From assembly GCF_025998535.1 (NCBI RefSeq), contig NZ_AP024233.1:1649219-1713218 (forward strand): 64,000 bases of DNA, given 5' to 3'. Position 1 is the first letter of the stretch. The number at the start of each line of letters is the position of its first letter. The position numbers and the translations under genes were made by a program. Below, piece by piece: positions 25,972 to 27,399 of the stretch. Under the pieces are notes generated by a model. The model was not told the DNA's origin, ran no database searches, and saw only the letters and a list, made by a program, of their open reading frames with translations. This DNA is from Desulfolithobacter dissulfuricans (GTDB lineage: Bacteria; Desulfobacterota; Desulfobulbia; Desulfobulbales; Desulfobulbaceae).

Positions 25972-27399
25972 ATGCCGCGCCTCCGCCTGCCGCTTCTGCT
26001 CTACAGCTACATCGCCACCGAACTTCTGGCGCCGTTTTTCGCCAGCGCGGCCATCCTCTACTGTGTCTTTTTCCTGGTCCGGCTCATGCCTATTCTGGAA
26101 GAGGTCCTGGCCCTGCGTATCGGCTTTGGCGACTTCGTCCGCCTCTTCACTTATCTTTCCCCGCATATGCTGCTCTATGTCCTGCCCATGGCCAGTATGA
26201 CCGGGGTCATCATCGGCTTTACCAGGATGACCACCGAACGGGAGATCCTGGCCCTCAAGGCCTGCGGCGTCAGTATCTACCAGCTGGTCCTGCCCGTGGT
26301 CCTGGTGGCCGCGGCCATCACCGGGATAACCCTGCTCTTTTCCGTCCATCTGGTTCCGGCGGGCAAGGTGGCCATGCGCCAGCTCATGTTCCAGCTGGCC
26401 AGGGAAAAGATCGACCGGGGTATCGAGGCCGGCACCTTCACCGAAGCCCTGGGCAACCTGGTGATCTATGTCGACAGTGTGGACCGGGACAGACAGTGGC
26501 ACGGGGTCTATGTCTCGGACATGCGGGGCCGGAAACAGCCCATGATCACCATGGCCAGGGGCGGACACATGGAGGCCGATGTGGAACGGATGCTGGTGAC
26601 CGTGGTTCTGGAGGACGGAACCCTGCACCATGCGAGCGGTCCGGACAGCCAGGTTATCCGTTTTCAGCGCTACCTGCTGCAGATCCCGGTCGGGACTCCC
26701 GGCGGCTTCAAGAGTGTCAAGCAGGGCAAGGGTTCCATGACCACGGCAGAACTCAGAGACGCGTCAAAGCAGGCCGGTCCAGGGACCAGGCAGGGTATCC
26801 GCTACCTGGTAGAGCTGCATAAACGACTCACCCTGCCAGTAGGCTGCTTCATCCTCAGCCTGCTTGGTGTCCCCCTGGGACTGCAGGCTGTTCCCGGCAA
26901 GAGGGCCATCGGCATTCCTCTGGGGCTGGGTTTTTTTATCTTCTATTATATCCTGTTCACCACCGGCACCAACCTGGTGGAAAATCTTAAACTGCCCCTG
27001 ATGGTCGGGATGTGGATGGCCAATGGTATCCTGGCCCTGACCACAATCTATCTTTTTTACCGGACCGAACAGGAAAAAAGCCTGGTGCCCGAACCGATGC
27101 AGGATCTGTTTTTCACCCTCTGCCGGCGATACCTGGACCCGGCCGGACGCGTGCTGGGCCAGCTGTTCGCCCGCCACATCCAGGGACGACGGCCTTCTCC
27201 CCAGGGGGGTGCGGCGCAGGAGATGTCGCTGCTCATCCATGCCGATCCCCACCGCCGCATCTTTCACCTGCCCCGCTGTGCCCTTTATCATGACCAGCGC
27301 TGTACCATCCATTTCAAGGATATCGAGGTTGCAAAAAAGGCCGGCTTTGTCCCCTGTCCCTTCTGCCGGAACCTGCTTGAAAACGAGCGGAAAAAATAA
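25972..27399 (+). CDS. lptF: LPS export permease LptF with C-terminal Ada-like zinc module
   Basis: LptF with LptG and LptB extracts LPS from the inner membrane. Residues 1-370 show the family plan: N-terminal helices, a TTEREILALKACG coupling region, a periplasmic jellyroll and three C-terminal helices ending ALTTIYLFYR. A further 100 residues follow that LptF normally lacks. They end in a module with IFHLPRCALY, RCTIHF and AKKAGFVPCPFC, a pattern like the zinc-binding domain of Ada. Neither lptG nor lptB is adjacent. The start at 25972 is supported by MPRLRLPLLLYSYIATELLAPF, a usual opening. No frame change is needed, so the fusion is a single frame. Confidence 0.9.
   Translation: MPRLRLPLLLYSYIATELLAPFFASAAILYCVFFLVRLMPILEEVLALRIGFGDFVRLFTYLSPHMLLYVLPMASMTGVIIGFTRMTTEREILALKACGVSIYQLVLPVVLVAAAITGITLLFSVHLVPAGKVAMRQLMFQLAREKIDRGIEAGTFTEALGNLVIYVDSVDRDRQWHGVYVSDMRGRKQPMITMARGGHMEADVERMLVTVVLEDGTLHHASGPDSQVIRFQRYLLQIPVGTPGGFKSVKQGKGSMTTAELRDASKQAGPGTRQGIRYLVELHKRLTLPVGCFILSLLGVPLGLQAVPGKRAIGIPLGLGFFIFYYILFTTGTNLVENLKLPLMVGMWMANGILALTTIYLFYRTEQEKSLVPEPMQDLFFTLCRRYLDPAGRVLGQLFARHIQGRRPSPQGGAAQEMSLLIHADPHRRIFHLPRCALYHDQRCTIHFKDIEVAKKAGFVPCPFCRNLLENERKK

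Follow-up and report, generated by a model that had tools for sequence, protein, structure and literature searches.

The window analyzed here, a stretch of 64,000 nucleotides of Desulfolithobacter dissulfuricans DNA, contains an lptF gene whose product, a permease of the lipopolysaccharide (LPS) exporter, continues for about 110 residues C-terminal to the permease domain. What this tail is, whether it truly belongs to the protein and what it could do for LPS export are the questions that the locus raises. We find that the gene encodes a conserved domain fusion of LptF with a small module of the Ada N-domain/sunset kind (HC3 module), which is present in Desulfobulbus-type bacteria and near relatives. 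At the level of titles and abstract beginnings, and among the matches listed, the literature gave no account of such a domain on LptF; the term 'sunset domain' led only to unrelated work.

The lptF gene and its C-terminal tail

The features of the gene are the following.

25972..27399, + strand: lptF open reading frame, 475 amino acids plus stop, ATG start; LptF permease with a C-terminal HC3 module
26008..27063, + strand: LptF_LptG permease domain (residues 13-364), from Pfam PF03739, hydropathy and the LptF chains in PDB
27064..27231, + strand: linker (residues 365-420), variable, partly amphipathic, presumably cytosolic, basic residues clustering toward the end
27232..27369, + strand: Ada-N-like/sunset-like HC3 module (residues 421-466), from profile, fold and ligand conservation
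27265..27267, + strand: His432, presumed metal ligand at the Ada Cys38 position, invariant in 34/34 homologues; from alignment to Ada
27277..27279, + strand: Cys436, presumed metal ligand (Ada Cys42), invariant in 34/34; from alignment to Ada
27355..27357, + strand: Cys462, presumed metal ligand (Ada Cys69), invariant in 34/34; from alignment to Ada
27364..27366, + strand: Cys465, presumed metal ligand (Ada Cys72), invariant in 34/34; from alignment to Ada

Permease, linker and module are encoded together in a single unbroken frame. The window protein contains the entire permease domain of LptF (YjgP) and scores above both relevant cut-offs, those of Pfam LptF_LptG (PF03739; residues 13-364, E 1.2e-77, 261.8 bits against a cut-off of 27.9) and of the NCBIfam LptF model TIGR04407 (234.3 bits, cut-off 230); it fails the LptG model (115.8 bits against 240). 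Its top PDB matches are solved LptF chains. Those among the matches comprise 362-375 residues, to which the window protein adds the linker and the HC3 module. The hydropathy profile has six peaks (the last reported twice), with a large domain (residues 124-285) between segments 3 and 4.

The genome (3.6 Mb, one contig) contains a second LptF/LptG-family gene, presumably lptG, about 0.9 Mb from lptF (G000:C1:1675226 and 2561743). In LPS export, LptF acts together with LptB, LptG and LptC. Upstream of lptF, the + strand also encodes an RNase E/G family protein and an M23 peptidase, and downstream there are a DUF166 gene in converging orientation and a gene for NAD(P)HX repair; among these genes around lptF, the neighbors suggest no partner candidate.

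The preliminary description of this locus reported some 100 extra residues with a His/Cys end. The extension is indeed there, but the motif-bearing, presumably metal-binding unit is confined to about 46 residues followed by a short end, and the roughly 55 residues upstream constitute a variable linker. The hydrophobic moment of the linker reaches 0.61, a helix at residues 374-404 is predicted in a low-confidence full-length model, and the single weak match in PHROGs falls in the linker and is to a family of unknown function (E 0.027).

As to the side of the membrane, we take the loop between segments 2 and 3 to be the coupling helix of LptF, which puts the C-terminus on the LptB side; a cytosolic C-terminus agrees with the LptB2FG structures. 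On this topology, the module probably lies on the cytosolic, LptB-side face. The full-length AlphaFold model (10 sequences) is poor (pLDDT 55.7, with residues 421-470 at 75-84) and therefore silent on where the module sits. For LptB2FGC, the published account describes six transmembrane helices each in LptF and LptG and coupling helices that fit into a groove of LptB (PMC6703430). The cytosolic placement proposed in the preliminary description is thus supported by the six hydrophobic segments and the LptB-facing coupling helices, from which we infer the side of the C-terminus.

Relationship of the module to the Ada and sunset domains

Comparison of the single sequence with the Pfam family Ada_Zn_binding (PF02805) produced a weak match for the whole protein (E 0.065, 13.7 bits) and somewhat higher scores for the tail alone (E 0.0059, 17.0 bits) and the module alone (19.1 bits), all below the gathering cut-off of 23, and a single-sequence PDB search with the tail resulted in one chance-level match (E 0.72). 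A profile built from 28 LptF tails retrieved Ada N-domain structures from PDB at E-values from 1.2e-4 (1adn) to 2.9e-4, and a 33-row profile, composed of LptF modules, an LptF tail from family f4 and four modules of other proteins, retrieved them at 7.9e-6 to 1.8e-5. When these 33 rows were scanned one by one (E up to 0.1), 32 matched the sunset model and 32 matched Ada_Zn_binding.

Structure prediction, which the preliminary description proposed as a check, points in the same direction. AlphaFold2 applied to the end of the tail alone (58 residues, four homologues) yielded a model with a pLDDT of 89.0, and a Foldseek search of PDB with this model returned five matches, of which the first four are Ada N-domains (1u8b, 1zgw, 1wpk and 1adn). 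The Ada matches are singly weak (E 0.67 each, probability 0.89 to 0.66); VIA-align of the model with 1u8b gave a Z-score of 5.5 and an rmsd of 3.0 over 55 aligned residues. For so small a domain each fold match is weak alone; profile and fold agree, and an Ada-like fold is predicted. Both the profile and the predicted fold mark the module as distantly related to the N-terminal zinc domain of Ada.

In the profile alignment, His432 falls on Ada Cys38, and the LptF cysteines fall on the next three cysteines of the Ada motif, which we take to be Cys42, Cys69 and Cys72 as counterparts of Cys436, Cys462 and Cys465. The HxxxC...PCxxC set (H432, C436, C462, C465) is invariant in the full-length alignment of 34 distinct LptF homologues, for the selection of which the motif was not used and from which five duplicate rows were removed; F448, A454, G458 and F459 are likewise invariant in 34/34. 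In a larger set the ligands are kept in 62/62 tails, a count that is partly true by construction because these tails were picked by a motif containing the ligands. An additional CxxC pair is common among the 34 homologues (C441 in 23, C444 in 31) and absent from the window protein itself, which has Asp at position 441. Judging from this pattern of residues, the four invariant positions probably hold one zinc ion.

The module shares with the Ada N-domain (PF02805; 1adn, 1eyf, 1u8b, 1zgw, 1wpk) the predicted fold, the four ligand positions and the GF-PC-x-x-C end. It differs in being shorter, in the His in place of the methyl-accepting Cys38, in its C-terminal location on a membrane protein rather than an N-terminal one on a repair protein, and in the single-sequence score of the window protein, which stays below the Pfam cut-off. 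In Ada, Cys38 becomes methylated, and the zinc ligands are Cys38 and 'three other Cys' (PMC10814553). With His in place of Cys38, Ada chemistry is therefore not expected of the LptF module, and a working methyl-phosphotriester repair site in the tail is ruled out by the His found at this position in all 34 homologues.

The second domain that the module resembles is the NCBIfam sunset domain (NF051437), which matches the window tail alone with an E-value of 1.9e-4 (21.4 bits) and the module alone with 23.7 bits, under the cut-off of 27; three LptF homologues exceed this cut-off (30.2, 28.7 and 27.5 bits). The match covers positions 4-40 of the 42 positions of the model and ends before the PCxxC pair. 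Variant models of sunset in NCBIfam are named for ArfC and the ribosomal proteins L4, L17, L20 and S2; no LptF variant turned up in the scan of the window protein. From these names and the match positions, a C-terminal site on a host of another family seems to be what defines sunset, and the LptF module, at residues 421-466 of 475, is likewise located at the C-terminus of such a host. The two also have a G/A-N/D...FH...F...A..AGF pattern in common. The C-terminal extension of ribosomal protein uL4 from C. acnes (PDB 8crx chain e, residues 249-287) aligns with the module over 39 positions and keeps GN..S..FH..P, but has no cysteines, whereas the LptF form keeps the presumed ligands. In the cryo-EM report, this extension is said to have no density and is called likely disordered (PMC10085706). 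Relatives of the module can therefore dispense with the metal site, which speaks for structural zinc where ligands are present.

Distribution, selection and loss

The order was searched through 257 genomes, 239 of which had an LptF match, and reaching profile position 466 or beyond, counted by hand, served as a proxy for the module. In the family of the window (f1), at least 61 of the 67 genomes with an LptF match reach the module, three are short (G085, G090, G091) and one match ends at a contig end (G012); G096 and G101 fall outside the matches listed, and six further f1 genomes have no LptF match. In a second family (f12), the module is reached in at least 72 of 86 genomes with a match (including G138, with a stop inside), and 10 are short; G128, G145, G169 and G171 are outside the matches listed, and seven genomes have no LptF match. 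In family f4, two genomes (G038 and G066) have the module on LptF, and the other 10 of the 12 searched gave no module match. For other families of the order, represented by one or two genomes each, the LptF reading stops 378-406 residues from the match start. Outside the order, no LptF extending beyond profile position 409 was found among the matches listed from a sample of the phylum, which covered 345 genomes and had an LptF match in 254. A scan of genome contigs with short peptide patterns, an approach limited to close relatives, yielded nine named loci, eight of them labeled Desulfobulbaceae or Desulfobulbus.

The search for the same fusion in other lptF genes, suggested in the preliminary description, has thus located it in many genomes of two families and in two f4 genomes. 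The two circumstances that were named there as speaking against the fusion, a frame error in the assembly and a lack of homologues with the tail, both fail, the fusion recurring across genomes. An artifact, be it a frame error, a misassembly or a chance Cys/His pattern, could draw on the single-sequence Pfam and NCBIfam scores, which are under the curated cut-offs, but the same fusion in many genomes rules out the first two, and the invariant ligands together with the codon-level selection described below make artifact of any kind a negligible prospect.

The module is under purifying selection. Mean identity over 561 pairs is 0.694 for the permease core, 0.257 for the linker and 0.504 for the module, and pN/pS, calculated as summed pN over summed pS in the 14 closest pairs, is 0.106, 0.447 and 0.175, respectively. 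The low value for the module and the higher one for the linker mean that the module is held by selection and the linker only loosely. One outlier pair, L009/L014, has a module pN/pS of 1.12, on few changes.

Tail-less LptF proteins, the reading of which stops near the linker, occur within the tail-bearing clade at seven separate places of the LptF core tree (L049, L050, L051, L052, L053, L054, L056, L057, L058, L059, L060 and L061). This tree comprises 69 chosen rows in which tail-less proteins were enriched on purpose, and the tail requires nine changes on it; bootstrap trees give 8-10, and starred branches force no fewer than six. Several of the nine fall on weak branches. In one simple reading, set against tail-less outgroups, there would have been two gains, in the ancestor of f1 and f12 and in f4, and seven losses. 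Apparent loss on about seven occasions implies that the module is accessory and its function dispensable. A split gene in the tail-less relatives was ruled out by searching 13 genomes with short LptF with a profile of the module at E-values up to 0.001: eight gave no module match, and in five (G091, G085, G154, G107 and G144) the match was away from lptF.

A distance of 47 kb or more separates lptF from lptG in each of the 13 genomes checked from f1 and f12, and the two genes are direct neighbors in all six genomes checked from f3, f4, f5, f7 and f14. Separation of the genes and acquisition of the tail may date to about the same branch. They are not tied, however: f4 possesses the tail although its genes are adjacent, and in G090 and G091 the genes are separate but the tail is missing. 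The f4 genome G066 encodes two adjacent LptF/LptG-family pairs (G066:C86 and G066:C108), with a module match only on the lptF of C86.

Possible roles of the module

The reading that we favor, with confidence about evenly balanced, is that the HC3 module, folded around a structural zinc, serves for docking or as an adaptor on the cytosolic face of LptF, toward LptB. The ancestor of f1 and f12 would have fused a module of about 46 residues, of the Ada N-domain/sunset kind, to the C-terminus of an ordinary LptF. A flexible linker, amphipathic in part, would tether the module below the membrane, where the ATPase LptB is located, and the zinc ion in the His-Cys-Cys-Cys set of the module would serve to keep this tiny domain folded. 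We prefer such a structural zinc over chemistry because of the His at the Cys38 place and the cysteine-less C. acnes uL4 relative. The folded module could then offer a docking surface to a cytosolic partner (LptB, an enzyme of LPS synthesis or another protein), which is the least certain step, and once docked might tune or place the exporter, as an accessory without which relatives manage. We regard the fusion, the ligand set, the selection and the patchy loss as established and the fold as well predicted; from there, certainty falls from the structural zinc through the cytosolic place to the docking or adaptor role. Against this reading stand the roughly seven losses, the apparently secreted hosts of most other module copies read in the phylum (see below) and the lack of a partner candidate among the neighbors of lptF.

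The preliminary description envisaged a zinc or thiol sensor, perhaps linking LPS export to stress. In this version of events, the HC3 site would lose its zinc or become oxidized under stress and thereby change the activity of LptB2FG, and the invariance of a thiolate-rich, presumably cytosolic site, with C441 and C444 frequent in addition, is compatible with it, as is Ada itself, in which a zinc-thiolate site of this sort does the chemical sensing (PMC10814553). Given the His in place of the reactive Cys38, the absence of the additional CxxC pair from the window protein and others, the sunset relative without cysteines and the recurrent loss of the tail, the sensor idea has found no support so far, and we regard it as unlikely. 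Recurrent loss, with about seven events, would also fit a mobile module that was captured from a nuclease-type protein, has little function on LptF, is kept by inertia and is being lost, and a similar copy does reside on a nuclease in the same genome (see below); invariant ligands and a module pN/pS far nearer that of the core than that of the linker make this quite improbable. We are still more doubtful of a tail that, close to the membrane, would bind nucleic acid (DNA or RNA) or the headgroups of anionic lipids, comparable to the binding of DNA by the Ada N-domain and perhaps by the nuclease copies. Structures of the Ada N-domain do include DNA complexes (1u8b, 1zgw), and a similar module is found at the end of SNase-type nucleases, but phosphotriester repair by Ada requires the Cys38 that is His here, and small proteins holding little but the module give no clue to nucleic acids.

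Being conserved and selected yet dispensable, and presumably cytosolic, the module offers a way into the question of how LPS export keeps pace with LPS synthesis. A far-reaching version, which we consider a long shot, is a cytosolic gating of LPS export in these families: by signaling to LptB2FG the zinc or thiol status of the cell, or a partner from LPS synthesis, the module would adjust export to supply or stress. In its broader form, the Ada/sunset fold would be a docking tag of general use, with zinc optional, that was repeatedly appended to the C-termini of housekeeping machines such as ribosomal proteins, ArfC and LptF. The list of hosts of the little-described sunset/Ada-like module, ribosomal proteins and ArfC, in any case gains a membrane transporter, with the presumed ligands kept.

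Copies of the module outside LptF

Two places in the genome of the window exceed the Pfam cut-off for Ada_Zn_binding, and the LptF tail ranks third, followed by four weaker places (E 0.11 to 0.68). The first is a probable ada gene (431164-431358, 104.6 bits, in an open frame of 368), and the second is the end of an SNase-family nuclease (1872578-1872760). This nuclease (L043:1000-1683; G000:C1, about 1872000-1872760) has a hydrophobic N-terminus, and the gene that follows it resembles, in our judgment, a transposase.

Within the phylum, the module copies outside LptF that were read include those of nucleases of the SNase type, of a DUF4124 protein and of small proteins whose N-termini are hydrophobic; most of the copies have a host with a hydrophobic N-terminus which, by eye, looks secreted. 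The usual working place of the module may therefore be outside the cytosol. The modules of the SNase-type nucleases have nearly the same motif as that of LptF, often with the additional CxxC, and differ in their host, an apparently secreted nuclease with a hydrophobic N-terminus. A tree of 62 modules over 47 columns, which is poorly resolved, has two changes between the 32 LptF rows and the 30 others; the f1 and f12 LptF tails group together save L071, and L062 and L071 stand beside a non-LptF row. Given this poor resolution, an origin from nuclease modules is not provable by the tree.

Several loci contain further arrangements of the module. At L123:1218-1884, two neighboring small proteins with hydrophobic N-termini each have the module at the end, and at L120:758-2244 a nuclease-like protein lies beside a DUF4124 protein, both ending in the module. 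Finally, L095:1480-2097 and L101:1036-1632 encode similar-looking proteins of about 200 residues with a C-terminal module and no obvious signal peptide, the module being the sole Pfam match in L095.
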